Source of the DNA: a virus
IMG/VR virus record: IMGVR_UViG_3300035034_001010
Span: 1 to 20,745 of that record
Strand: one strand, 5' to 3'
Length of the DNA stretch: 20,745 nucleotides
The notes below the pieces were generated by a model. That model made no database searches. It saw only the letters and a list, made by a program, of their open reading frames with translations, and had not been told where the DNA came from. Positions 1,010 to 20,519 of this stretch are shown here, piece after piece. Position 1 is the stretch's first letter. The number at the start of each line of letters is the position of its first letter. Made by a program: the position numbers and the translations under genes.

Positions 1010-1486
1010 ATGATTGATACAAGCAACAATACTAACAATGAAGATGGATACGGTCAGGATTATATTCTATCACCACAATCAAGACTATCTATATTAGAAA
1101 AGAGATATGGAGTGGTAGAAGAGCATACAATCACCGTAAGTAAACTATCATCTAAAGTTTCTGTGCTTCTCACTTTAATGTCATTCGCTGTTTTTATAGT
1201 ATCAGGAGCGGCTGTATATTCATTCACTGGTCTTGATAGTTTCAAAGATTCATATAATGATGATAGAGTGGAAATGCATCGTATTATGAATAAGACACAA
1301 AACGATAACAGAGAAGTTATTACATATGCTATAAAGGCACTAGAAGAGGGGGTGTCTAAAAAAATGAAAGAGCATGAGATTAGTATGGATATTCGTATTG
1401 ATGACATTGAAGATAATATGGATGATAGAATGGATAGCATACAAACTCAATATAACAGTTTAAAAGATAAAATAAAAGAGAACTAA
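1010..1486 (+). CDS. single-pass membrane protein with C-terminal coiled coil
   Basis: The 158-aa product has a polar N-terminus (residues 1-48), one strongly hydrophobic segment at about 50-73 (SVLLTLMSFAVFIVSGAAVY) and a charged, helical C-terminal domain, about 80-158. That domain is dense in Asp, Glu, Lys, Met and Ile with heptad-like spacing, as expected for a coiled coil. There is no signal-peptidase site, so it is probably an integral membrane protein. Its TAA shares one base with the ATG of the next gene (TAATG), implying translational coupling to the PAS protein. Holin-like or spanin-like function is possible given the lysozyme-fold protein two genes downstream. It could equally be a partner of the PAS protein. 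No family was recognised. Confidence 0.8.
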   Translation: MIDTSNNTNNEDGYGQDYILSPQSRLSILEKRYGVVEEHTITVSKLSSKVSVLLTLMSFAVFIVSGAAVYSFTGLDSFKDSYNDDRVEMHRIMNKTQNDNREVITYAIKALEEGVSKKMKEHEISMDIRIDDIEDNMDDRMDSIQTQYNSLKDKIKEN

Positions 1487-2466
1487 TGGACATATTAACT
1501 CTACTTACGGGTATTTGTCTAATTATATTATGTATAACAACAGTTGAAGCGGTGCTATGGTCATATGCTGTTTTCAATCACTGTAGATGGGCAATACTTC
1601 ATAACATACCAGATAGAAGAAGTGTATCATACGAAGCCTTATCAATATTTTCAGGGTGTACTGGATTATTTTGTTTTATTACTTGGTTGGGGTTTTGTTT
1701 CATAGCATCAGGGGCAGTATCACATTTAACATTCCTTATAATATATTTCGTTACTTTATTTGGTACTCATATAATAATGTGTCATTGCTGGCATCTTGTG
1801 TCTGCCTATATAAACATTCCTTTAGAGTTCGTTCCTTATATGAGTAGATTCTTTATTATAATATCTAATAAAGTATTCAGTAGTGGATATAGGGTCAATT
1901 CTATACCAATGCCTTCATGGGAAGAATTCTATAGTAAAGCTAAAGAACACAAATCTCTAATACTTAACTTTATAGATTCATGTCCTGATATGTTTTGGAC
2001 AAAGGATATTGATGGTAAATATACATATATAAACAAGTCAACATCTAAACATCTCCTATTAACAAAAGTAGAAGATGCAATTAATAAAGATTCGAAAGAA
2101 ATAGCGATAGAGTTAAGAGAAAGAGGATTGGAATATACTATAGCAGACAATTGTATAAGTACAGATAAGTTTACAATTATCAGAGGAAAACCAACTCTAT
2201 TTTATGAACACGGAAGAGTAGGTGATGATATGTTGGCTCTTCGTGTAATGAAAGCTCCTATATATAACAAAAATTTAAACATAATAGGAATTATAGGAGT
2301 AGGTAAAGATATAACCCATCACATAAAGGCATATGATAAAATTGAAAAACTTTTTAATGATGGTAACTATGAAGAGGCCAAGAGTGTGTTTCTTGCATAT
2401 AAACAGAAGTTCGAATCAATGAGAGATGTAAAAGATCCAGATTCATTACTTAGAGGATTGCGCTAA
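1486..2466 (+). CDS. three-pass membrane protein with a cytoplasmic PAS domain
   Basis: The 326-aa product has hydrophobic segments at about residues 3-30, 51-75 and 79-104, then a soluble region. Residues about 157-277 read as a PAS domain: a helix LILNFIDSCPDMFWTKDIDG, the typical 'D-x-x-G-x-Y-x-Y-I-N' strand pair (DIDGKYTYIN), and a terminal GIIGVGKDITHHI that matches the PAC-type 'g-v-x-x-D-I-T' ending. A helix of about 45 residues follows. No histidine-kinase, GGDEF, HTH or other output domain is present. PAS domains bind small ligands or cofactors and signal redox, light, oxygen or metabolites. The ligand here cannot be predicted. The gene is coupled at both ends by TAATG overlaps, upstream to the coiled-coil membrane protein and downstream to a lysozyme-fold protein. 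Membrane-anchored PAS proteins are unusual in phages. Confidence 0.8.
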   Translation: MDILTLLTGICLIILCITTVEAVLWSYAVFNHCRWAILHNIPDRRSVSYEALSIFSGCTGLFCFITWLGFCFIASGAVSHLTFLIIYFVTLFGTHIIMCHCWHLVSAYINIPLEFVPYMSRFFIIISNKVFSSGYRVNSIPMPSWEEFYSKAKEHKSLILNFIDSCPDMFWTKDIDGKYTYINKSTSKHLLLTKVEDAINKDSKEIAIELRERGLEYTIADNCISTDKFTIIRGKPTLFYEHGRVGDDMLALRVMKAPIYNKNLNIIGIIGVGKDITHHIKAYDKIEKLFNDGNYEEAKSVFLAYKQKFESMRDVKDPDSLLRGLR

Positions 2467-2969
2467 TGGACGATATAAGAGGTATAAGCAAAAGAATCTA
2501 TATATTAGTTTCTATACATGCTGTTAGATTGCAAATTGATCCTGATATTGCATACATGAATGCTCTACGGTTTGCTCATATTATAGGAATATTTGAGAAT
2601 AACGGTAAACTCCATGGTAATAATATTCCTCAAAGCGGAAAAGGCCAAAGTTCTGCTAAGGGTCTTTATCAATATCTAACTGATAGTGTTACTACTGCAA
2701 AGAATCGATTAAGCAAATATATAAAATTTATATTTTCAGATGATCCTAATGAAATGAGTTGGGAAGAACAAACTTTATTACTATTAGGAGACTTGTTAGA
2801 AAAAAGGGGAAGTGATAGATATATGAAAGTTATATTGAGCAATCCGACTCTATCTGTGTTGGATACTATAGAAGAGGCTTATTATGTTCTTCATCATACT
2901 GCTCCAGATACAGCAACTAAGAATATGGTAAGACGGAAACTAAAGGAAATAAAAGAACTCATAGCATAA
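2466..2969 (+). CDS. lysozyme/lytic-transglycosylase-like protein
   Basis: Residues 35-85 follow the goose-lysozyme/SLT pattern. A helix ends in Glu44 (AHIIGIFENNGKL), the likely catalytic acid, then comes a polar loop and a 'S-S-A-K-G-L-Y-Q-Y-L-T-D-S-V-T-T-A' segment (about 62-77), equivalent to the 'G-A-x-G-L-x-Q-x-x-x-x-T' stretch of transglycosylases. The remaining residues to 167 are helical and end in a basic segment. No signal peptide is seen, so export would need a holin or virion delivery. The start overlaps the PAS gene stop (TAATG), with AGAGGA upstream. The protein would cut the glycan strands of peptidoglycan. The fold call rests on motif pattern, not a computed alignment. Virion-associated lysozyme is an alternative to a lysis role. 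Confidence 0.6.
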   Translation: MDDIRGISKRIYILVSIHAVRLQIDPDIAYMNALRFAHIIGIFENNGKLHGNNIPQSGKGQSSAKGLYQYLTDSVTTAKNRLSKYIKFIFSDDPNEMSWEEQTLLLLGDLLEKRGSDRYMKVILSNPTLSVLDTIEEAYYVLHHTAPDTATKNMVRRKLKEIKELIA

Positions 2970-2980
2970 GAAAAGAAAAT

Positions 2981-3187
2981 ATGAAGATAGTAGAATCCAC
3001 AAGAAAAATAATAAATGATGCAGTGAGAATTGCCGAAACAGCCATAGAAGAGGTAGATGATCATTGTACTCTATTTTGGGATGTGTGGAGAGATATAGAT
3101 ATTTCAGGATGTTGTATAGTCCATGATGAGATGTATGAAGATCCCAACTATTCTAGAATGGAATGTGATTTACTACTGAGAGACTGA
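2981..3187 (+). CDS. small acidic unknown protein (68 aa)
   Basis: The ORF begins 11 nt after the lysozyme-like gene and continues its transcription unit. The product is acidic, with an N-terminal amphipathic helix (residues 1-27) and a C-terminal region containing HCTLFWDVWRDID and a paired-Cys segment (SGCCIVHDE). No family was recognised. The ribosome site is weak (AAGAAAAG). Spacing and strand consistency support it being real. Confidence 0.55.
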   Translation: MKIVESTRKIINDAVRIAETAIEEVDDHCTLFWDVWRDIDISGCCIVHDEMYEDPNYSRMECDLLLRD

Positions 3188-3988: not shown

Positions 3989-4393
3989 ATGCCCCAATTC
4001 GGAAAGAGATCTAGAGAAAAATTAGAAACTTGTGATCCCAGACTCCAAGAAATTTTTGAAGAAGTAGTGAAAACATGGGATTGTATAATATTATGTGGCC
4101 ATAGGGATGAGATAACACAAAACAAAGCCTTCAAGGACAAGAAGAGTAAACTGAAATTCCCAGATTCCAAACATAATACATTACCAGCAAAAGCGATTGA
4201 TGTTGCTCCTTATTATGCTAATGTTGGTGTGGATTGGGATGATCTCGGAGGTTTCTATATGTTTGCAGGGTATGCCATTAGAATTGCTGAAGAAAAGGGC
4301 TATAAAATTAGGTTTGGAGGAGATTGGGATGGAGACAAACAAACTACTGACCAAAAATTCAATGACCTTCCTCATTTTGAATTAATCGAATAA
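3989..4393 (+). CDS. M15-family L-Ala-D-Glu endopeptidase-type endolysin
   Basis: The 134-aa product carries the zinc-peptidase signature of VanY/T5-endolysin-type M15 enzymes: S60-K-H62 followed by A69-I-D71 (SKHNTLPAKAIDVAPY), then a GGDWDGD segment (110-116) and D126-L-P-H129-F-E. His62, Asp71 and His129 would bind zinc, and Asp126 would be the catalytic acid/base. Such enzymes cut the peptide stems of peptidoglycan. The length is typical of single-domain endolysins (T5 endolysin is 137 aa). No signal peptide is present, so a holin would be needed for access. It starts 31 nt after a terminator with no promoter seen in the gap, so expression may depend on read-through or an unrecognised promoter. 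Confidence 0.88.
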   Translation: MPQFGKRSREKLETCDPRLQEIFEEVVKTWDCIILCGHRDEITQNKAFKDKKSKLKFPDSKHNTLPAKAIDVAPYYANVGVDWDDLGGFYMFAGYAIRIAEEKGYKIRFGGDWDGDKQTTDQKFNDLPHFELIE

Positions 4394-4398
4394 ACCTC

Positions 4399-4427
4399 TT
4401 GACAAACCGCTCTTGGTAAATTATAAT
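4399..4427 (+). promoter_or_regulatory. consensus sigma-70 promoter
   Basis: TTGACA (4399-4404), a 17-nt spacer and TATAAT (4422-4427) form an exact match to the sigma-70 consensus. It lies just after the M15 gene and before the SleB-type hydrolase, whose ribosome site is at 4461. It excludes the upstream ATG at 4413 as the start used by this transcript. It is likely a strong promoter recognised by unmodified host polymerase, that is, an early one. Confidence 0.85.
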
Positions 4428-4472
4428 AAATGCTCGCAATATGAAGTTATAACCTCTATCAGGAGCTATATC

Positions 4473-4958
4473 ATGAACAAAAAACTTATTGACGTAATCA
4501 TTCTTATTGCTATCATCGGCTTTATCCTTCTGTGGTTCGCCCCTCGTGGAAATGCCATAACCGAAGCCGAAGATGACTTTGCCAGGAGTGAAACCTATTG
4601 GCTCACATTAAATATCTACCATGAAGCTCGTGGAGAACACCCATTCGGTATGCTTATGGTGGCTCTTGTTACTTTGGACCGACAAGATGATGGTCGATGG
4701 GGTGATACTATTAAGGAAGTTGTTACAGCTCCTGCTCAATTCTCTTGGTACTCTGATGGTAAATCTGATATACCCACAGATGAGGAATCATGGGAACTTT
4801 CAAAAAAGGTTGCTTTATTCGCTCAGATGACTTATAGTTCTTTTGGAGATCACTTTAATGTCACTCACTACCATGCCTTATCAGTTAGTCCATATTGGAA
4901 GGACGAATTAGAAAGGGCTTTGGTTTTTGGAAATCATGTATTTTATAGAGAGGGTTAA
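4473..4958 (+). CDS. SleB/CwlJ-type cell-wall hydrolase with N-terminal membrane anchor
   Basis: The start at 4473 is chosen because AGGAG lies 7 nt upstream. The frame extends to an ATG at 4413, but that lies inside the promoter. The 161-aa product has a hydrophobic segment at residues 6-24 (IDVIILIAIIGFILLWF), acting as signal-anchor or SAR-like segment. The hydrolase domain follows: NIYHEARGE (catalytic Glu51), GMLMVALVTLDRQ, a PAQFSWY segment, THYHAL and a terminal GNHVFY, all characteristic of the Hydrolase_2 (SleB/CwlJ) family of lytic transglycosylases/amidases. The anchor would place the enzyme in the periplasm without a holin. It is the first gene of a unit that continues into gp33, gp59 and gp32, an odd company for a lysis enzyme. 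Confidence 0.87.
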   Translation: MNKKLIDVIILIAIIGFILLWFAPRGNAITEAEDDFARSETYWLTLNIYHEARGEHPFGMLMVALVTLDRQDDGRWGDTIKEVVTAPAQFSWYSDGKSDIPTDEESWELSKKVALFAQMTYSSFGDHFNVTHYHALSVSPYWKDELERALVFGNHVFYREG

Positions 4959-5748: not shown

Positions 5749-5762
5749 ATCTGGGGGTGATC

Positions 5763-6353
5763 ATGAAAATAGTCAGTGGATATTTTGTATACAGGGCTTA
5801 CACTTCATACAAGGCGCATTTTTCTGCTTCTAATACAGATATAAGTAAGTATGGATTCAGACTGTTCAAACCTTCTTATGATACTTTTCTATGTACTAAA
5901 GGAAAGCAGTTCTATGACAAGATAGCCAAACGACTACAGACTGAAGTGGGTGTAACGAATCTATTCATAACAGCCTTCCTTGAAGATCCTGATTTGTGGA
6001 TTGGTGCCATCTGTGGTGAACTATCTACTTATATTGAGAAGATGGTGATCAGGGATGGAAGACTGGCTAATATGCCCTACGTATTCGCTAAAGATGCTAC
6101 TACTCTTTTACGAAGTGGGATGAAGTTCAATGATGATATGGCTGAATTTTGCTTTGATGCATTGATGTCATCTAGTATTGAACTGGAGAGCTTTATCATC
6201 CTGAAAAAAATGTTTAATCTCAGACTTGACAACAATACAACCCATGATTACCTTTACAGTTCTAAGTACATAAAGTACGAGTTTCTTTTAAAAGTGGGTT
6301 TGGAGAAATACAAAACAATACTAGAGGAGGCCGTTATGCAAAACAGGGACTAA
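5763..6353 (+). CDS. 59: helicase-loading protein gp59
   Basis: ATG at 5763 is chosen over the GTG at 5757 because GGGGGTG lies directly upstream. The 196-aa product follows T4 gp59 (217 aa) along its length: VYRAYTSYKAHF near the start, a KGKQFYDKIAKRLQ helix, the NLFITAFLEDPDLWIGAI segment matching gp59 'IFISNLVANQDAWIG', SSIELESFIILKKMFNL matching 'SNIISFETFILLDSFLN', and the end LKVGLEKYKTIL. gp59 binds gp32-coated single strands and forks and loads the gp41 helicase for recombination-dependent replication. Its place just before gp32 is the T4 order. It is wholly helical, with no catalytic motif expected. Confidence 0.88.
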   Translation: MKIVSGYFVYRAYTSYKAHFSASNTDISKYGFRLFKPSYDTFLCTKGKQFYDKIAKRLQTEVGVTNLFITAFLEDPDLWIGAICGELSTYIEKMVIRDGRLANMPYVFAKDATTLLRSGMKFNDDMAEFCFDALMSSSIELESFIILKKMFNLRLDNNTTHDYLYSSKYIKYEFLLKVGLEKYKTILEEAVMQNRD

Positions 6354-6381
6354 AAAGCGTCCTACAGTAATAAACAAGTGA

Positions 6382-6410
6382 TTTACAGGTACAGTACAGG
6401 TAAATACAAT
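6382..6410 (+). promoter_or_regulatory. sigma-70-type promoter for gp32 with embedded direct repeats
   Basis: TTTACA (6382-6387), 17-nt spacer and TACAAT (6405-6410) each match consensus at 5 of 6 bases. The spacer is framed by two ACAGGTA copies (6385-6391 and 6396-6402), 11 bp apart, a possible operator. The transcript leader to the ATG at 6445 would be short, A-rich and unstructured, as expected of a site for gp32 translational self-control. Confidence 0.6.
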
Positions 6411-6444
6411 TTAAAACTACAAAATAATACGAGGAAAAAACACT

Positions 6445-7398
6445 ATGAGTTTGGAATCACTACGAGAGAGAAATAAATCTGGAAAGTTGGATAAGTTGTT
6501 GAAGGCCGCTGGTCGTACTTCACTGGGGAAAAAGAACACCAATAACGAACAGGATGTCACGTACTACCCTGAACGTGACAAAAAAGGTAATGGATCTGCT
6601 ATTATCCGATTCTTGCCTGGACTTGAATCTGAGGATTATCCATACTACGTTGAACGTTTTCAACATGGTTTTCAGGCTAATAACAAATGGTTCATTGAGT
6701 TCTGTCCGACTACCCTTGGTTTGGAATGTCCAGTCTGTGATGATAACTTCGATACAATCGGGGAATATGGTGAATGGGATGATGTCCCTGAAGATGTCCA
6801 GGCTGTAATCCGTAAGAGGGGTCGGAATGCTGGTTTCTCTGCTGGTAACTACTGTAACATTTTGGTTATCAAAGATCCTGCTAACCCAGAGAACGAAGGT
6901 AAAGTTCACCTGTTCTCTTTCGGTAAAGGAATTTCTGATCTTATTTTCGGTATGGCTCAACCTATCGATGATGGATTAGGTGACGTTCCTGAACCAATTG
7001 ATGTTTTCGACTTACTTGAAGGTGCTAATTTTAAGTTTGTGATCCGTAAGAAAGACAAACGGGCTGATTATTCTCAGTCGTCTTTCGAAGCTCCATCACC
7101 ATGCCCTGAATTCGATGTTGATGAACAACAGGCTCTTCTACCTCTTGTTGATGAGAAGAAATTTAAGTCATATGAGGATCTGGCTGATCGTTTTGCTAAG
7201 GTTTTGAATAAGACCGCCAAACGTACTGCTAAATCTGCCGAAGATGTTGTTGATCAGGGTGTTGATAAATCTGAATCTGATGGTGATATGGATACACCAG
7301 ATGGTCTTCCTGACTCTGATGGTACAGTTGATGGTACTGATGAGGGAAATGATAACATGGATTATTTCAAAGGAATCGCTGACGAAATTAAGATCTAG
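6445..7398 (+). CDS. 32: single-stranded DNA-binding protein gp32
   Basis: The 317-aa product has the three-part layout of T4 gp32 (301 aa). The basic N-terminus (RERNKSGKLDKLLKAAG) mediates cooperative binding. The core OB domain includes SAIIRFLPG, HGFQANNKWFIEFC and NYCNILVIKDPANPENEGKV, close to T4 'ANILVVKDPAAPENEGKV'. The C-terminal tail from about residue 265 is acidic (DKSESDGDMDTPDG) and recruits replication partners. The zinc site is intact: His74, Cys87, Cys95, Cys98, with spacing shortened by two residues between the first two Cys compared with T4. It coats single-stranded DNA at forks and recombination sites and works with gp59. Start fits AGGAAAA at -12. A terminator follows the stop. 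Confidence 0.96.
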   Translation: MSLESLRERNKSGKLDKLLKAAGRTSLGKKNTNNEQDVTYYPERDKKGNGSAIIRFLPGLESEDYPYYVERFQHGFQANNKWFIEFCPTTLGLECPVCDDNFDTIGEYGEWDDVPEDVQAVIRKRGRNAGFSAGNYCNILVIKDPANPENEGKVHLFSFGKGISDLIFGMAQPIDDGLGDVPEPIDVFDLLEGANFKFVIRKKDKRADYSQSSFEAPSPCPEFDVDEQQALLPLVDEKKFKSYEDLADRFAKVLNKTAKRTAKSAEDVVDQGVDKSESDGDMDTPDGLPDSDGTVDGTDEGNDNMDYFKGIADEIKI

Positions 7399-7426
7399 TT
7401 ATCACTAATGAGTAGAAGTATATAAT

Positions 7427-7463
7427 AAAAAGGGGCATGTCTTTTATGACATGCCCCTTTTTT
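7427..7463. terminator. bidirectional intrinsic terminator between convergent units
   Basis: AAAAGGGGCATGTC (7428-7441) and GACATGCCCCTTTTTT (7448-7463) form a near-perfect stem around a 6-nt loop. The A-run on one side and T-run on the other allow termination in both directions: of gp32 on the plus strand and of the tape-measure unit on the minus strand. Confidence 0.93.
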
Positions 7464-7479
7464 GTGCTTAAATGGCTCC

Positions 7480-10122
7480 CTACGAGCTATTTTGGTTATA
7501 GAGTAAGTTCGTACCCCTATCTATATCATGTGGGCTTACAGGCATCGTTATGTTCGTTGTACCACCTGTTACAAAATTCTTCACATCAGATACAGATTCT
7601 CCGATGGCTTGTGCTGTTTGAGATCCCCTTGTAGCTTCTTTGGTTGCATCAAGAGCATCCTTCATTTCAGACATTAACTGCATACGGGCGTTTTCTGATG
7701 TGTTATATATCATAGTAAGAGTTTTACTCACTTCCATACCTTGAGCATTTGTTAGTAACTCTCCTGCAATACCTTTAGCAAGAGATCCAGTTGCAGCTAT
7801 CCCTTCACCGATTCCTGCGGCTGATATATTTAAGTTTGCATTACCACTCTTAGCAAAATCTTTAGCTTGTGCTATAATATCAGCACCTATCTCTTTCCCA
7901 CCAGACCCAATAAAAGCTGCTGATCCTGCAAGAGTTCCATTTTTCAATCCAAACGTATCAACAAGATCTTCTCCAGAAGGTATCATGTTCTCTTTTTGGA
8001 CCGCTTTTTCAACCTTTCCATCTCGTTTTTCTTTTCTAGCTTTGCGATTAGCCTTCATCTTTTCAGCTAGTAGTTTGTTCTGTTTCTCTTGTTCTTTCTT
8101 TTCCTTTCTATGAGTAATATCATAAAACCAACCACCAAGAGATTGGCCCTTTTCTCCTGTTAGTTTCTCCATTCCTTGATCGATCTTGTTATTAATAAAA
8201 GTACCAATACCAAAACCTGCTGCTCCTGCTCCTGCTACTAATGCTAATGGTCCTGCTATAGTAGCCAGTGTACTTAGTAAAGGACCAAGACTTCCTACAA
8301 GAGCTATTATACGACCACCCAAACCAGTCAATAATGTACCTATAGATCCTATTTTAGTACCAAAAGGTCCAAGAAATCCCATAATAGTACCCATTATACC
8401 ACCACTACCTTTATTAGAGGAATCTTCAGGAATAAGCGAACCGTCTTTTAATGTATCGTAAATCCCCTTTGTGGAATCCCGAATTGATATGATATTATCT
8501 TTAGCCTCTCTCTTTTGTTCTTCTTGTCCTATACTATCACTATCATCACTATCATCACTACTACTCATTATAATATCAGGGCCGTTTGCTTGATGAAGTA
8601 TATCATATATACCCCTAACTGATCGGGTAATAGACACTACGTTAGGATGATTCATAGCTTGTAATGATACTGGGTAATCATCTGCTTTACCACTAACCAT
8701 ACAAGCACAAAGACCATCTCTAAGTCGGTCTATAGCATCGACCTCTTCTATATTAGCATCCTCTATTTTTTCAAGAGTATCAAGGTTTTGTGCTTCAAAT
8801 ACACTAAACGAACCAGTCATTGTGGGAAATACACCAATACCACTATTCAATATATGGAATATCTTCTCATCCCAACCAACACCATGTCCTAACTCTTCAT
8901 GTACCCGCTCAAGAATGTCTACGGTCTTCTCTCCATCTGTCTTGGCCTTTTCTTTCTTACCAAACATAGCTTCTTTTAGTTTATCACCAATTGAAACCTT
9001 AGTAAAGTCATGCCATAATTTAGCGAATCCGGTTTTTTCTTCTTCTTTGGGTGCAGTGTGCTTACGAATATCTTTAAGAATATCAGCTTGCTCTTCTATA
9101 TTCTTACCCATACCAAAAAAACCACGATCACCCTTAGTACTGGTATTTCCTGATATCTTTTCTAATAGTAATGTTTGTTGAACTTCTTGTGTTCTTTTAC
9201 CTTTAGACCATATAGAGAAGAATTTACCAGAAAGGGCAGCTAAACCTAATGTTAGAGGAGTTACAGAAGCTGCAAAGGCACCCACAATTCCAGCACCCAC
9301 AACAGACATTGCAGGAAGAAAGTTATTCATGGCCCTATGAATAGCAAGACCCATAGCTGATTTATTTCCAGTATTCTCTTCGATCTTTTCTAATAAAGCA
9401 GTATCACCCTTATTTTTGCCGTTTAGAAGAGATTCATTAATACTACCAAGAATAGAAATAATCTCTAACTGATTATCTAATTGAGCATTACCAATAGAGT
9501 TAGTGTCTCTATATTTACCACCTCTCTTACTACGATCCTCTAACATTACTCTGAATAATCGCTGTTGATAATCAGCATTACCATCCTTATCAACACCAAC
9601 ACTATGCCTTATGGCTCTCCATGTTTGGAGTATTTCTGAACGCTCAAAGGCAAATAGGTTGATAAATCCTCTACGTAATGTCTCAGGAAAGGATATTAAA
9701 CCACTAGCTATAGACTTGGCTATCCTCTTATTATTCTCTATCCTTTCCTTTTCAGATTTAATAAGATTATCTTGTTCTTTCGATTTTGCTAAACCATCAA
9801 TTATACCATCATATGTACCTTTATAAATACAACCATAAACCTTGCATATCTTATTTGTTTTTGATGATTCTGTTACTGGAGATTCCGTCTTGGATACGTT
9901 CTTATTATGAGTCTGAAGATACTCTTTCATAGCTTGAGCAATAGAAAGAGTATCTTTACCGAGTTTCTTTAAATCATCTTTAAGAACATCTGTCTGGCTA
10001 TCGACCTCTTTTATACGATTTATGGCTTCACGGAGATCCACCTTACCGTCATTATTTTTATCAGCAGTTAGTGATGGAACTCTGTTACCGTTTTTATCTA
10101 TATTTCTTGGTGGTTTACTCAT
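7480..10122 (-). CDS. tail tape-measure protein with an EF-hand
   Basis: This 880-aa protein is the last gene of the minus-strand tail unit, straight after gp26. It has the tape-measure signature: a long helical, charged chain with two Gly/Ala-rich hydrophobic zones (about 266-305 and 575-645, the latter GTLLTGLGGRIIALVGSLGP and similar). Short repeated elements include LLEKIEENT (244), LLLEKISGNT (318) and ILKDIRKHT (348), and a doubled SIxxSxxGIYDxL motif (about 496 and 545). Residues 21-32 (DKNNDGKVDLRE) are a canonical calcium EF-hand loop. Tape measures set tail length and enter the host membrane with the DNA; the hydrophobic zones fit that role. It is longer than T4 gp29 (590 aa) and not obviously its homologue by sequence. 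A chaperone-assisted assembly is expected from its neighbour. Confidence in the class is good, in the T4 name low. Confidence 0.78.
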   Translation of the reverse strand: MSKPPRNIDKNGNRVPSLTADKNNDGKVDLREAINRIKEVDSQTDVLKDDLKKLGKDTLSIAQAMKEYLQTHNKNVSKTESPVTESSKTNKICKVYGCIYKGTYDGIIDGLAKSKEQDNLIKSEKERIENNKRIAKSIASGLISFPETLRRGFINLFAFERSEILQTWRAIRHSVGVDKDGNADYQQRLFRVMLEDRSKRGGKYRDTNSIGNAQLDNQLEIISILGSINESLLNGKNKGDTALLEKIEENTGNKSAMGLAIHRAMNNFLPAMSVVGAGIVGAFAASVTPLTLGLAALSGKFFSIWSKGKRTQEVQQTLLLEKISGNTSTKGDRGFFGMGKNIEEQADILKDIRKHTAPKEEEKTGFAKLWHDFTKVSIGDKLKEAMFGKKEKAKTDGEKTVDILERVHEELGHGVGWDEKIFHILNSGIGVFPTMTGSFSVFEAQNLDTLEKIEDANIEEVDAIDRLRDGLCACMVSGKADDYPVSLQAMNHPNVVSITRSVRGIYDILHQANGPDIIMSSSDDSDDSDSIGQEEQKREAKDNIISIRDSTKGIYDTLKDGSLIPEDSSNKGSGGIMGTIMGFLGPFGTKIGSIGTLLTGLGGRIIALVGSLGPLLSTLATIAGPLALVAGAGAAGFGIGTFINNKIDQGMEKLTGEKGQSLGGWFYDITHRKEKKEQEKQNKLLAEKMKANRKARKEKRDGKVEKAVQKENMIPSGEDLVDTFGLKNGTLAGSAAFIGSGGKEIGADIIAQAKDFAKSGNANLNISAAGIGEGIAATGSLAKGIAGELLTNAQGMEVSKTLTMIYNTSENARMQLMSEMKDALDATKEATRGSQTAQAIGESVSDVKNFVTGGTTNITMPVSPHDIDRGTNLLYNQNSS

Positions 10123-11676: not shown

Positions 11677-12384
11677 TTATGCTCCTGTGTTGCTATTTAT
11701 ATAATAACAGTCTAGATTATTTGGATTTCTACACCAATAAGATACAGTAGAGGAATGCACTCTTAAGTGTTCAGATGCTTTTTTAACAGACTCAAATTTT
11801 TCTTCTTTTATTATGCACACTTTACTCATTTTTTTCAGTGCTTCTTCTGAGAGCTTTTTCCCTTTCTTGGATGCACTAATTTTCTTCTTTGTCTCTTCTG
11901 AATGAGTTTTTCCTTTTATGGATTGACTCATTCTTTTCTTGGCTTCTTCTGATATTACTTTTCCTTTATGTACTTTCCCTATTTTCTTTTTTGTTTCTTC
12001 TGATATTACTTTTCCTTTATGTGCTTTCCCTATTTTCTTTTTTGTTTCTTCTGAATGAGTTTTTCCATAGTTAGGATTATTTTCTCCACAAATACTACCA
12101 CCACATCCTCCTTGTCTCATATTATAGCAATTAATATTACTTATCATTTCTTCATTAACAATCTCAGCTTCCTTCAGGTATGCTTCTTCAGAACTATCAA
12201 ATCTGAACAACATCTCCCTTTTAAAATTATCCCTTCCATATTTCTTTATTGCACCCTTTAAAGCCAAGCCACTGCCCAAATATCTACCATTACCAGCACC
12301 TTTAACTTTATGGACACCAATATAGAACTTTCCACTAATTAAGTTTGTTGTTTCATATACTATATAATTTCCCGTATTTTCCAT
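11677..12384 (-). CDS. GIY-YIG free-standing homing endonuclease (Seg-like)
   Basis: The 235-aa product begins with a GIY-YIG nuclease domain: NYIVYETTNLISGKFYIGVHK supplies the two strands (Y-I-V at 7-9, Y-I-G at 21-23). RYLGSGLALKGAIKKYG and an E-A-E-I-V-N-E-E helix, which holds the metal-binding Glu, follow. Residues about 104-185 are five tandem NUMOD3-type DNA-binding repeats (S-E-E-T-K-K-K-I-G-K-x-H-K-G-K). The C-terminus (residues about 195-222: FESVKKASEHLRVHSSTVSY) is a NUMOD1/helix-turn-helix module. Such enzymes cut phage relatives lacking the gene and spread by repair. It starts 5 nt after the upstream stop, and its 3' end carries the late promoter and ribosome site of the tube gene. 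It interrupts an otherwise continuous structural gene unit. Confidence 0.93.
   Translation of the reverse strand: MENTGNYIVYETTNLISGKFYIGVHKVKGAGNGRYLGSGLALKGAIKKYGRDNFKREMLFRFDSSEEAYLKEAEIVNEEMISNINCYNMRQGGCGGSICGENNPNYGKTHSEETKKKIGKAHKGKVISEETKKKIGKVHKGKVISEEAKKRMSQSIKGKTHSEETKKKISASKKGKKLSEEALKKMSKVCIIKEEKFESVKKASEHLRVHSSTVSYWCRNPNNLDCYYINSNTGA
11694..11701 (-). promoter_or_regulatory. T4-type late promoter (TATAAATA) for the tube protein gene
   Basis: On the minus strand TATAAATA (11701 to 11694) is followed by GCAACACAGGAGCATAAAAATG, so the octamer lies 19 nt before the ATG of the gp19-like gene. It is embedded in the last codons of the upstream GIY-YIG endonuclease gene. Confidence 0.65.
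11944..12045 (-). repeat. 51-bp tandem duplication inside the homing endonuclease gene
   Basis: Units 11944-11994 and 11995-12045 differ at one base. Each encodes one 17-aa NUMOD3 repeat (ISEETKKKIGK-x-HKGKV). A third, diverged unit follows at 12046. The near-identity indicates a recent in-frame duplication. Confidence 0.9.
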
Positions 12385-14629: not shown

Positions 14630-14944
14630 ATGAAAACATTTAAAACCCTAATATCAGAAGACACAGATGTTCAAGGTCTGACTGAAACACAATTATTACG
14701 GAGTGCCATTACCGAAGAATTAGATGCTGTAATTCTGTATGAGAAAATGGCCGAACAAACCATTAACCCCGATCTCAGAAAACTCTTCTTAGATGTTGCC
14801 TATGAAGAAAAAGTCCATGCTGAAGAATTCGAAGAGATGCTTGAACGTCTAGATCCTGATTATGAAAAAGCAGAAGATCAGGCCGAAGATGAGATTGAAG
14901 ATATGTTCGGGAAAGAAGAAGATGATAAAGAGGATGATGACTAA
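14630..14944 (+). CDS. ferritin-like (encapsulated-ferritin/rubrerythrin type) small protein
   Basis: The 104-aa product has two predicted helices at about 22-44 (LLRSAITEELDAVILYEKMA) and 47-74 (PDLRKLFLDVAYEEKVHAEE). They carry Glu30, Glu60 and His63, in the E-(x29)-E-x2-H spacing of the ferroxidase site of encapsulated ferritins (Glu32, Glu62, His65 in the Rhodospirillum rubrum protein, from memory). Such half-ferritins form the metal site at a dimer interface. The last 25 residues are a very acidic tail (EDEIEDMFGKEEDDKEDDD). The gene lies 2 nt after gp48 and overlaps gp53 by one base (TAATG), so it belongs to the baseplate unit. Iron binding is a prediction; the short N-terminus MKTFKTLISE resembles those of some T4-like virion proteins. 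Confidence 0.78.
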   Translation: MKTFKTLISEDTDVQGLTETQLLRSAITEELDAVILYEKMAEQTINPDLRKLFLDVAYEEKVHAEEFEEMLERLDPDYEKAEDQAEDEIEDMFGKEEDDKEDDD

Positions 14945-17053: not shown

Positions 17054-17085
17054 CTGACACAAATAAGGGTATGTATTTGTGTCAG
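17054..17085. other. perfect 12-bp inverted repeat after the hub gene
   Basis: CTGACACAAATA (17054-17065) and TATTTGTGTCAG (17074-17085) pair perfectly around an 8-nt loop, 12 nt after the hub stop. There is no T-run, so it is not a standard terminator. An mRNA 3' end-stabilising or processing hairpin, or a protein-binding palindrome at the edge of the repeat array, is likely. Confidence 0.85.
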
Positions 17086-17181
17086 AGGATAGTGGTAAGG
17101 ATAGTGGTAAGGATAGTGGTAAGGATAGTGGTAAGGATAGTGGTAAGGATAGTGGTAAGGATAGTGGTAAGGATAGTGGTG
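17086..17181 (+). repeat. eight tandem 12-bp repeats (AGGATAGTGGTA)
   Basis: Seven identical copies of AGGATAGTGGTA run from 17086 without spacers; the eighth (17170-17181) ends in G. A further copy in the same context (AAGGATAGTGGTGGAATAGTA) appears at both 17169-17189 and 17293-17313, about 124 nt apart. Confidence 0.97.
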
Positions 17182-17388
17182 GAATAGTAGTTATTGTTGT
17201 TAGGAAAAAAATGTATAGAGATGGGGTTTAAAAATATTAAGTATGTGGAATTACTATATTTAAGGAAAGTGTTAAATAGTAGGAAATGGAGTGGTAAGGA
17301 TAGTGGTGGAATAGTACAAAAATAGTACAAAATTATTTTTTTTTTTTTTTGAAAATTTTTTTGGAAAATGCTCTTTTTTATATACGGC

Positions 17389-17779: not shown

Positions 17780-17809
17780 CTATTACAATATAAAACCATG
17801 AGGAATAGT

Positions 17810-18295
17810 ATGTATTACGAGAACCATCATATAACACCTAGACATGCACTAAAACACAAAGATAGATCATTCATAGATAGACCAGATAATATAGTAAGGT
17901 TGCCCCATCATGAACATATCAAAGCTCATAAGTGGCTATATCTTCTATTGCAAGATCAATCATCAAGATGTGCTTATAATGGTATGAAATATGGCACAAT
18001 GAAACATGATTCTACTGGTATAACAGGTCGTAAGGATAGTAAAAAGGTAAGAATTAAGAAATCTAAAGTAAGAATGGGTATGAAGTTCACAAAAGAGCAC
18101 TGTAATAATATAAGTAAGTCAAAGACAGGCATCAAGAGTCCAGTAGCCAAGCTATGGTTTATACATGGAGCACTATTCTACTCTGCATATGAGGCTGGTG
18201 ATTTCTATGGAGTATCAGCACAAACAATAAAGAGATGGTGTGATCCTAAGAGTAAGTATCATTTACCATTATGCTACAGTTATACAAGGGGGTAG
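17810..18295 (+). CDS. HNH homing endonuclease overlapping gp5
   Basis: The start at 17810 is preferred to the ATG at 17798 because GAGGA lies just before it. The 161-aa product opens with an HNH site: MYYENHHITPRH (His6-His7), Asn27 in RPDNIVRL, and LPHHEHIKAHKW (His36, His40). A basic linker follows, with a NUMOD3-like MGMKFTKEHCNNISKSKTGI and a NUMOD1-like helix-turn-helix near the end (YEAGDFYGVSAQTIKRWC). It is a free-standing mobile nuclease. Its final codons and stop (18293-18295) overlap the 5' end of the gp5 frame. The upstream space is repeats, with no sign of a group I intron core. It is the second homing endonuclease in the window and, like the GIY-YIG one, abuts a tail gene. Confidence 0.9.
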   Translation: MYYENHHITPRHALKHKDRSFIDRPDNIVRLPHHEHIKAHKWLYLLLQDQSSRCAYNGMKYGTMKHDSTGITGRKDSKKVRIKKSKVRMGMKFTKEHCNNISKSKTGIKSPVAKLWFIHGALFYSAYEAGDFYGVSAQTIKRWCDPKSKYHLPLCYSYTRG

Positions 18296-20519
18296 AGATA
18301 TTTTTGACACAAAGAGCACTCAAAGATTAGGTAACGATGGATTCATATGGTTCATTGGTATAGTAGAAGATATAGATGATCCATTACAATTAGGTAGAGT
18401 CAGGGTCCGTATACTAGGTGATCATACACAGTCAACAAAGAGTGAACGGATACCTACAGATGGTTTACCGTGGGCATACCTTATGAATGGTCCCTTATCG
18501 TCTTCAATGCAGGGGATAGGTGATAGTCCTACTGGGTTGTATGTAAAAGGAGCATGGGTTAAGGGCTTCTACTGGGATGGTATAGACAAACAACAACCAG
18601 TAATCACTAACTCATTCGGTGGGATACCTGAATCAATACCGTTCAAACCAAAGAAGAGTGATGATACGGATGAGGATGGAGAGGATCTAGGTAATGATTG
18701 TGGATTTCAAGATCCTGATACTGTATTCCCTATGGGTCATCATATATTTGAACAGGACACTAATAGACTAGCCCGTAATACTCCTAGTGATCATGCATTT
18801 GAGGTACCGGAATCATTAGTTCCTCCTCAAGAAGTAATGATTAAGGAAGGGTTATGTCCAAAGAAGGCCGTATATGGTAAAAAGTATTATGATAAGTTTG
18901 ATGAGGCTTATGTACGTAGGTTTGCCCAGGGAGAACATGAGAAGGATAGTGATGATGATAGTGTAATAGATAATGAAACACAGTCTACGGAGGAATTGAA
19001 AGTAAAGGATAAGGAAGATAGTAAGTGTCAATTCTTCTTAGAGAAAAACAATCATCCTTTTACTGTATTTAAGTGGATCAATAAGGAGAGGTTTATACCA
19101 AAGTGTAAGGTGTTTGCTGATCCGATGCATAGAGAGTATTGGCATGAACCTGATAATCCATGGGATGTGAAGTATCCTTATAACAAAGTGTGGGAAGGGT
19201 ATCATGAGGTAGGTGAAGAGAGTGCTAGTAATCCTGGTAATAATGGTTTTGTTAGTAGTTCTTATGGTTATGATAAATCGATAGAGAATTATGATGGTAG
19301 TGAGAAAGAGGGGATCTATAGAAAACAGGTATGTGGATATGGATCGTGGGGTTTAGGTGAAGAGTGGGATAGTACACCTGGTAAGAATAGGTATCATAGA
19401 TTTACCCCTTCGGGAAACTACTTTGAGATTGATCAGGAAGGTAATGAGACAAGGAAGATCTATGGAGACAGTTTTGAGATAGACCTGAAGGACCGTACTA
19501 TCCTGATTAAGGGTGATTGGAATGTGACAGTAGAGGGTGATAAGAATGAGTTGATAGAGGGAGATTATAACTTACAGGTGATGGGTGATCTTAATACTGA
19601 TGTGAGGAGTGGGATTAAGACTCATTGTGATGGTAATATGGATGTACATGTCAAGGATAATCAGAGAGTGATAGTAGATGGTGATCAGGAATTGAGAGTG
19701 GCCGGAAGTAGAGAGTTGATTGTCTGTAAGGATGATAAGGTATGGTCGAAGACTGCTGAACGTAGGGCTGATGAGATAGTACGGAAGGGTGGAAAGCTAA
19801 TACATGATGAAGGGTTTGTCAAGTTTGAAGTTATAGCACACGATATGGAGCAACGGATTTGTAACTTGAGTACGGATGTGAGTGCGTGGGAGGAAAGAAC
19901 AGGTATACTTAATTCAAATGTAAATGTACTTACGGAGAATGTAAATGTACATTACGAAAATCATGCTTTACATAATGAAACAGCAACTGATTATAATGGG
20001 TGCATAGCTCATTCATTCCTTAACGTTATTGATTATGAATTAATATATCAGAACATTTATTTGGTTGAGCAGGGAGCTTTTGCATGTGTCCAAGAGCCTG
20101 ATATTGTTGAACTTCCTGTAGTTGGTAGCTCTAACTATCCAGAAACGGATGGTATCACAAAATGTTTAGACAGATATAATAAATCTATAGAAGCTGCTAA
20201 GGGTGCTTGTATGACCACTTTAATTGATCCAAGAACATTAGAAGACTACGAACGCTTTGATTGGGAAAAGTATCATGCAAGTGTAGAATCAGCCAAAAGA
20301 TCATATGAGAATTGTGTTAGGCAAAATGAAGGAAGTACATGTGATGTATGTTCTCCTGTACCTGGTGCTCTTGTCTGGGAATGTATGGGTTGTCATGATC
20401 CTGATTGCCCTGCTGAAGAGAAAGAATATGAGTTCTGGGAGTGTGATTGTGAGTGTGATGGGTCTAAGGAAGAGAAATTCGTTGATCCGTGGTTAGATTG
20501 TGAGCAGGAGAAGCCGTAA
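18240..20519 (+). CDS. 5: baseplate central spike protein gp5 without lysozyme domain
   Basis: The frame shows an N-terminal OB fold (GFIWFIGIVEDIDDPLQLGR, matching T4 gp5 'NWFVGVVEDRMDPLKLGRVR') and LPWAYLMNGPLSSSMQGIG. The long middle part is without the T4-lysozyme motifs. A conserved TPGKNRYHRFTPSGNYFEID then leads into the triple beta-helix with repeated V-x-G-D units (about residues 388-530). The last 68 residues contain 10 Cys. gp5 forms the membrane-piercing trimer under the gp27 hub. No ATG occurs in the first 80 codons. GTG at 18240 lies inside the endonuclease gene and has a weak ribosome site; ATT at 18300 has AAGGGGG 7 nt upstream and may be the real start, giving 739 aa (N-terminal residues 21 onward). 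The coordinates given use the only standard start codon. Confidence 0.9.
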   Translation: MILRVSIIYHYATVIQGGRDIFDTKSTQRLGNDGFIWFIGIVEDIDDPLQLGRVRVRILGDHTQSTKSERIPTDGLPWAYLMNGPLSSSMQGIGDSPTGLYVKGAWVKGFYWDGIDKQQPVITNSFGGIPESIPFKPKKSDDTDEDGEDLGNDCGFQDPDTVFPMGHHIFEQDTNRLARNTPSDHAFEVPESLVPPQEVMIKEGLCPKKAVYGKKYYDKFDEAYVRRFAQGEHEKDSDDDSVIDNETQSTEELKVKDKEDSKCQFFLEKNNHPFTVFKWINKERFIPKCKVFADPMHREYWHEPDNPWDVKYPYNKVWEGYHEVGEESASNPGNNGFVSSSYGYDKSIENYDGSEKEGIYRKQVCGYGSWGLGEEWDSTPGKNRYHRFTPSGNYFEIDQEGNETRKIYGDSFEIDLKDRTILIKGDWNVTVEGDKNELIEGDYNLQVMGDLNTDVRSGIKTHCDGNMDVHVKDNQRVIVDGDQELRVAGSRELIVCKDDKVWSKTAERRADEIVRKGGKLIHDEGFVKFEVIAHDMEQRICNLSTDVSAWEERTGILNSNVNVLTENVNVHYENHALHNETATDYNGCIAHSFLNVIDYELIYQNIYLVEQGAFACVQEPDIVELPVVGSSNYPETDGITKCLDRYNKSIEAAKGACMTTLIDPRTLEDYERFDWEKYHASVESAKRSYENCVRQNEGSTCDVCSPVPGALVWECMGCHDPDCPAEEKEYEFWECDCECDGSKEEKFVDPWLDCEQEKP

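Follow-up and report, generated by a model that had tools for sequence, protein, structure and literature searches.

Behind the gene for a single-pass membrane protein (P1), in the lysis neighborhood of a T4-like phage, lie two overlapping genes encoding a membrane protein with a PAS domain (P2) and a lysozyme-like protein (P3). We tentatively propose that P2 acts as a holin or antiholin under PAS control and would thereby govern the release of P3, and hence the timing of lysis, with P2 and P3 forming an accessory pair behind P1. Although this is a possibility rather than a probability, we consider it the best single reading because the genes lie in a lysis neighborhood, the membrane part of P2 resembles class I holins, P3 lacks a signal peptide, and both genes are jointly absent from the closest relative found.

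Gene Layout and the Related Genome

The window (the whole 20,745-base stretch of viral DNA analyzed here) originates from a T4-like phage, as seen from gp59- and gp32-like genes at positions 5757–7398, identified by profile matches, and a gp5-like gene at 18240–20519 that matches Gp5_OB and the C-terminal trimer. Three plus-strand genes, already listed in an earlier note on this DNA, encode P1 (1010–1486, 158 aa), with one predicted membrane segment and a helical, coiled-coil-like tail; P2 (1486–2466, 326 aa), with three predicted membrane segments followed by a PAS domain; and P3 (2466–2969, 167 aa), which is lysozyme/transglycosylase-like. TAATG overlaps on the plus strand join the P1 stop to the P2 start (1484–1488) and the P2 stop to the P3 start (2464–2468), and an AGAGGA-like ribosome site lies immediately 5′ of the P3 start. 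The earlier note had singled out these two overlaps; they are present but not special, since further TAATG overlaps at 14944 of the window and at 3145 of the related genome make such junctions ordinary here. Among 17 genes, P2 and P3 show the lowest third-position G+C (0.217 and 0.196). The T4-type late promoter motif TATAAATA was rejected as a signal, as its five occurrences in the window are not above chance (4.06 expected), and none lies upstream of P1. Scans for sigma-70 promoters and terminators likewise yielded chance level only.

The sole close collinear relative found is IMGVR_UViG_3300028042_000001 (L002, 157 kb), whose gp32 is 72% identical. It keeps, in order, P1, the small phrog_6098 gene, an 81-aa gene, the M15-type endolysin, the Hydrolase_2 gene, gp59, and then gp32 and gp5, with identities of 60% for the endolysin, 50% for the Hydrolase_2 gene, 54% for gp59, and 65% for gp5. 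The P1 homologue in L002 (5218–5631, 37% identity over 114 aa) shares 17 bases with the phrog_6098 gene, and the junction that holds P2 and P3 in the window is therefore closed. Searches of L002 for P2 (protein search and PAS_4 profile) and for P3 (protein search, SLT profile, and A8 profile) were all negative. Gain of the two genes in one genome cannot be told apart from loss in the other on the basis of two genomes.

Fourteen further records were also scanned, comprising 12 of the 13 P3-family loci (all except L026) and two distant T4-like contigs, many of them fragments; none of the 14 matched PAS_4 or P2. The trio of P1, P2, and P3, which the earlier note had treated as one system, is not a conserved unit. 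P1 is the core gene of the region, and P2 with P3 has the look of an accessory addition to the lysis neighborhood, because L002 keeps P1, the gene that follows, and the lysis genes but lacks both.

The lysis genes downstream of P3 are conserved neighbors on the plus strand: an M15-type endolysin (3989–4393; phrog_465 endolysin, E = 1.5e-33) and a cell wall hydrolase with an N-terminal membrane segment (4413–4958; Pfam Hydrolase_2, 2.9e-16). The phrog_6098 gene directly after P3 (2981–3418) contains an in-frame TGA at 3185–3187 and is intact in L002; a nonsense mutation, a sequencing error, and read-through cannot be told apart, and a candidate recoding hairpin behind the TGA was rejected (z = 0.16). 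Its product displays a His-Asp motif beside a Cys pair, which we take to resemble phospholipase A2, while no library named a phospholipase. Among the baseplate genes of the window, 11677–12384 and 17798–18295 appear by eye to encode GIY-YIG- and HNH-homing-endonuclease-like proteins, and a short tandem repeat at 17079–17330, coding for Gly-Lys-Asp-Ser on one strand, separates a 480-aa gene from the HNH-like gene. L002 in turn carries genes with many near-identical YDKDGN-type repeats (6763–8730) between the endolysin and gp59 regions, which are absent there in the window.

Membrane Proteins P1 and P2

Hydropathy assigns P1 a single membrane segment at aa 50–68 (~1157–1213), in agreement with the single pass described in the earlier note. 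The 20 residues before the segment contain four Lys/Arg and three Asp/Glu, and the 20 after it contain two and five. Class III holins are described in PMC9636201 as having one helix with the N-terminus inside and the C-terminus outside, and P1 has the outline of such a class III (T4 T-type) holin, for which it may have the activity. Hole formation by T4 T is reported in PMC12162936 to require no more than the N-terminal part, the membrane helix, and a bridge helix; because T needs only those parts, P1 could, by analogy, be a reduced T-like holin. Sequence searches returned no Pfam holin match even up to E = 10 and no holin-family match, and single-pair comparisons with T4 T gave no significant similarity for P1 (E = 0.020) or its L002 homologue (0.31). 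The N-terminal part of P1 is not unusually amphipathic, its value being equaled or exceeded by 1826 of 2000 shuffles, and short-pattern or tblastn scans, which distant relatives would escape, found no relatives of P1 in phage sequences. T4 gene t is located after tail-fiber genes. Synteny with it was set aside as support for P1, because the tail-fiber identity of the neighbor in L002 is a guess; the ORF preceding the P1 homologue there has no PHROG match.

The three membrane segments of P2 span aa 6–24, 60–78, and 81–99 (~1501–1557, 1663–1719, and 1726–1782), and its Lys/Arg residues number zero at the N-terminus, three in loop 1, zero in the hairpin, and six on the C-terminal side (aa 100–160). 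Together with hydropathy, this charge distribution suggests that P2 is oriented N-out, C-in, with a cytoplasmic PAS domain. Three helices in the same orientation define class I holins (PMC9636201). The membrane part of P2 has this class I outline and may act as a holin; no holin-family match of P2 was obtained in Pfam, PHROGs, or NCBIfam, and a search of phage sequences with the membrane part returned a single match at E = 9. At the end of the third segment, a run rich in His and Cys (H95, C99, H100, C101, and H103; window 1768–1800) could, speculatively, bind a metal or heme.

The PAS domain occupies aa 162–277 (~1969–2316). Pfam PAS_4 aligns over model positions 2–106 of 110 (E = 1.1e-4; 22.9 bits, 0.2 under the curated cut-off), and Pfam PAS scores slightly under its cut-off (E = 1.1e-3). 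The closest named profile is NCBIfam ArcB (8.1e-8, aa 150–292), followed by TIGR00229 sensory_box (4.3e-3), with scores far or slightly under their own cut-offs. A single-pair BLASTP comparison with Escherichia coli ArcB gave 21% identity over 160 columns (E = 4e-8), the likeness spanning linker and PAS (aa 140–292). By sequence comparison, the PAS domain of P2 is genuine. No output domain was found in P2 with Pfam or NCBIfam, and the three-pass PAS protein of the earlier note is thus borne out by hydropathy, profiles, and pairwise alignment alike. Models predicted from single sequences were poor for both P2 (mean pLDDT 45, with the PAS region mostly <50) and P3 (mean pLDDT 41), and neither fold is therefore confirmed by structure.

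Matches to P2 were retrieved from 72 plasmid records; where a product is listed, it is a PAS, GGDEF/EAL, or response-regulator protein. Only three phage records matched, and we regard all three as host DNA because they match the ArcB PAS at 98.5%. A second copy of P2 was found neither in viral contigs nor in genome contigs using short patterns and tblastn, which distant relatives would escape. The PAS domain of P2 has no PHROG match either, a silence that we do not count as rarity given that the PAS of ArcB itself is also unmatched there.

P3 and Its Family

P3 displays no membrane segment by hydropathy and no visible signal peptide, and direct searches of Pfam, PHROG, and NCBIfam returned no match. 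P3 weakly resembles the end of an internal virion protein from a Vibrio podophage (E = 1e-2); this match pointed to domains in Pelagibacter phages, and a search with the resulting alignment (A6) identified 13 viral loci related to P3. Five of these are separate genes (L020–L024, with L023 and L024 nearly identical), seven lie within large ORFs (L025, L026, L027, L029, L030, L031, and L032), and in L028 the domain is truncated by the contig end. The domain is N-terminal in L025, a protein of at least 1481 aa, and C-terminal in the other six large ORFs; L026 is as long as the Vibrio phage record, and L031 resembles L032. In L020, L021, and L023, the P3-family gene lies slightly upstream of a 500-aa ORF, which in L021 matches the terminase large subunit, and no PAS protein adjoins. 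Short patterns and tblastn revealed no P3 relative that forms a second copy of the pair in viral or genome contigs, and a gapped P3 motif pattern gave no matches in viral contigs, the control being that the same pattern recovers P3 in the window.

An alignment of 11 sequences (A7), from which L024, L026, L028, L030, L032, L007, and L008 were omitted as duplicate, cut, or near an included sequence, showed E44, A64, G66, Q69, Y139, H143, H144, and D148 to be invariant in 11/11. On the plus strand of the window, Glu44 is encoded at 2595–2597, the A64–Q69 motif at 2655–2672, and HHT at 2892–2900. P3 alone in A7 carries Asn at the Ser45 position, after the catalytic Glu, with a short insert adjoining. 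Pfam Phage_lysozyme2 weakly matched five of the six relatives scanned (E 0.0013–0.11, all under the cut-off), and PHROG transglycosylase matched 5 of the 11 family members (best E 0.01). Searched against the PDB, the A7 profile returned the phiKZ gp144 transglycosylase as its top match (E = 0.019), with the catalytic Glu and A-x-G-x-x-Q in register; the smaller alignment A8 gave an E of only 1.1 for gp144, and no lysozyme was among the matches listed for the A3 profile. The P3 motif, a pattern picked after the sequence had been seen, recurred in 31 of 200,000 shuffles of P3. Against E. coli Slt and T7 gp16, the profile of the P3 family scored no better than against unrelated controls, although the catalytic Glu was nonetheless in register in the Slt alignment.

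From its sequence features, the family looks like a group of lysozyme-like (transglycosylase-like) phage domains that occur both as separate genes and as parts of virion/ejection-type proteins, and P3 is probably a cell-wall-cutting enzyme. The lysozyme fold claimed in the earlier note gains from the family assignment and the invariant Glu44, and lacks a direct library match. That note had named loss of the Glu44 geometry and a place in the virion as signs against its proposal; Glu44 is kept, whereas the family does often reside in large virion/ejection-type proteins, which tells in part against the proposal. L025 also encodes, at 389–643, a small coil protein with one membrane segment beside ejection-type genes, which has a PHROG holin match (E = 1.7e-4), a point in favor of the lysis reading.

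Proposed Lysis Control and Competing Readings

Starting from the genes, their overlaps, the predicted membrane segments, the PAS domain, the lysozyme-like family, and the absence of P2 and P3 from L002, we infer a topology, holin and enzyme activities, a cue, and a gating step as follows. P2 would gather in the membrane, where its PAS domain would bind or otherwise register a cue from the cytoplasm; the cue would shift the oligomeric state of P2 and cause P2, by itself or together with P1, to trigger or withhold hole formation. P3 would be made in the cytoplasm and, having no signal peptide, would need such a hole to reach the wall, where it would aid the two conserved lysins. Less likely is the stricter version in which P2 combines a class-I-like membrane part and a cytoplasmic PAS sensor in one holin or holin gate, through which a small molecule or redox state would set the hole and lysozyme release directly, without transcription; we regard it as improbable. 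The earlier note had envisaged a PAS sensor gating lysis or superinfection. The PAS domain, the lysozyme-like P3, and the nearby endolysin and hydrolase speak for that idea, the lack of a conserved trio speaks against it, and the gating is conjecture. Counting against control of lysis are the two conserved lysins already present in the phage, the frequent occurrence of P3 relatives within virion/ejection-type proteins, the lack of a holin-family match for P1 or P2, and the fact that the pair is so far known from this one phage.

A more mundane account, which we consider doubtful though it fares best among the competitors, is that the three late genes share an mRNA but no function, and that their TAATG overlaps reflect genome compaction only. 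Such overlaps do recur in the window and in L002, conservation of the trio is lacking, and relatives of P3 stand beside other genes; yet L002 lacks both P2 and P3 at one place, and both are low in third-position G+C, as two genes acquired at the same time should be.

Alternatively, P3 might be a virion-borne or periplasm-directed wall enzyme acting at entry or superinfection, with P2 excluding or sensing incoming phages. The P3 family does occur in a Vibrio phage internal virion protein and in large Pelagibacter phage proteins, and the L025 protein with its N-terminal domain stands behind two genes in what appears by eye to be T7-like ejection-protein order. The gp5-like protein of the phage (18240–20519) has no Pfam lysozyme domain, a point in favor of this role, but the equally long, 65% identical gp5 of L002, by alignment, has none either, and L002 manages without P3. 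Since P3 is moreover a separate small gene, as in 5 of the 13 relatives, and sits among lysis rather than virion genes, we judge this role unlikely.

Equally unlikely is that P2 serves as a decoy anchored in the membrane, its ArcB-like linker and PAS, without kinase, pairing with a host PAS sensor and blunting host signaling, P3 being separate: ArcB comes closest to P2 both among named profiles and in pairwise alignment, no output domain was found in P2, and PAS domains commonly dimerize, but the identity to E. coli ArcB is only 21%, and the joint presence of P2 with P3 is left unexplained. ArcB, a host PAS sensor kinase, has two membrane segments, whereas P2 has three and lacks the kinase and receiver parts.

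The reading of P2 and P3 as a PAS-controlled lysis pair finds partial counterparts in known systems. In λ S105/R, a class I holin (as classified in PMC9636201) and an endolysin, a three-helix membrane protein likewise just precedes and overlaps a signal-less wall enzyme, with the topology of P2 being predicted; P2 differs in its PAS domain and in having no holin-family sequence match. T4 T and the antiholins RI and RIII (lysis inhibition) share control of a holin by a sensing protein, and T has one membrane segment and an outer helical tail, as does P1 (PMC12162936); here, however, P1 has no significant similarity to T, and the PAS domain sits on the membrane protein. A phage PAS domain also features in VqmA of Vibrio phage VP882, which dimerizes through it and whose sensing of a small molecule results in lysis (PMC8284805), but VqmA is soluble, acts on transcription, and comes from a temperate phage, whereas P2 is a membrane protein in which no DNA-binding domain was found.

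Among the open-licence papers listed by full-text search, no title or abstract opening described a phage in which a lysozyme adjoins a membrane protein with a PAS domain. To our knowledge, the known routes by which phages sense lysis time are antiholins (T4 RI and RIII) or transcription (VqmA of VP882). If the proposal is true, a sensor fused to a membrane protein beside a lysozyme-like gene would provide a direct chemical input to lysis timing, and the phage may sense cell conditions before bursting its host. Independent of lysis control, the P3 family connects stand-alone lysozyme-like genes to domains that form part of ejection-type proteins in phages. In the podophages Vibrio phage 1.204.O and Pelagibacter phages HTVC203P and EXVC032P Baldr, this domain family belongs to large internal virion proteins, whereas P3 is a separate gene with Asn rather than Ser after the Glu and a short insert.
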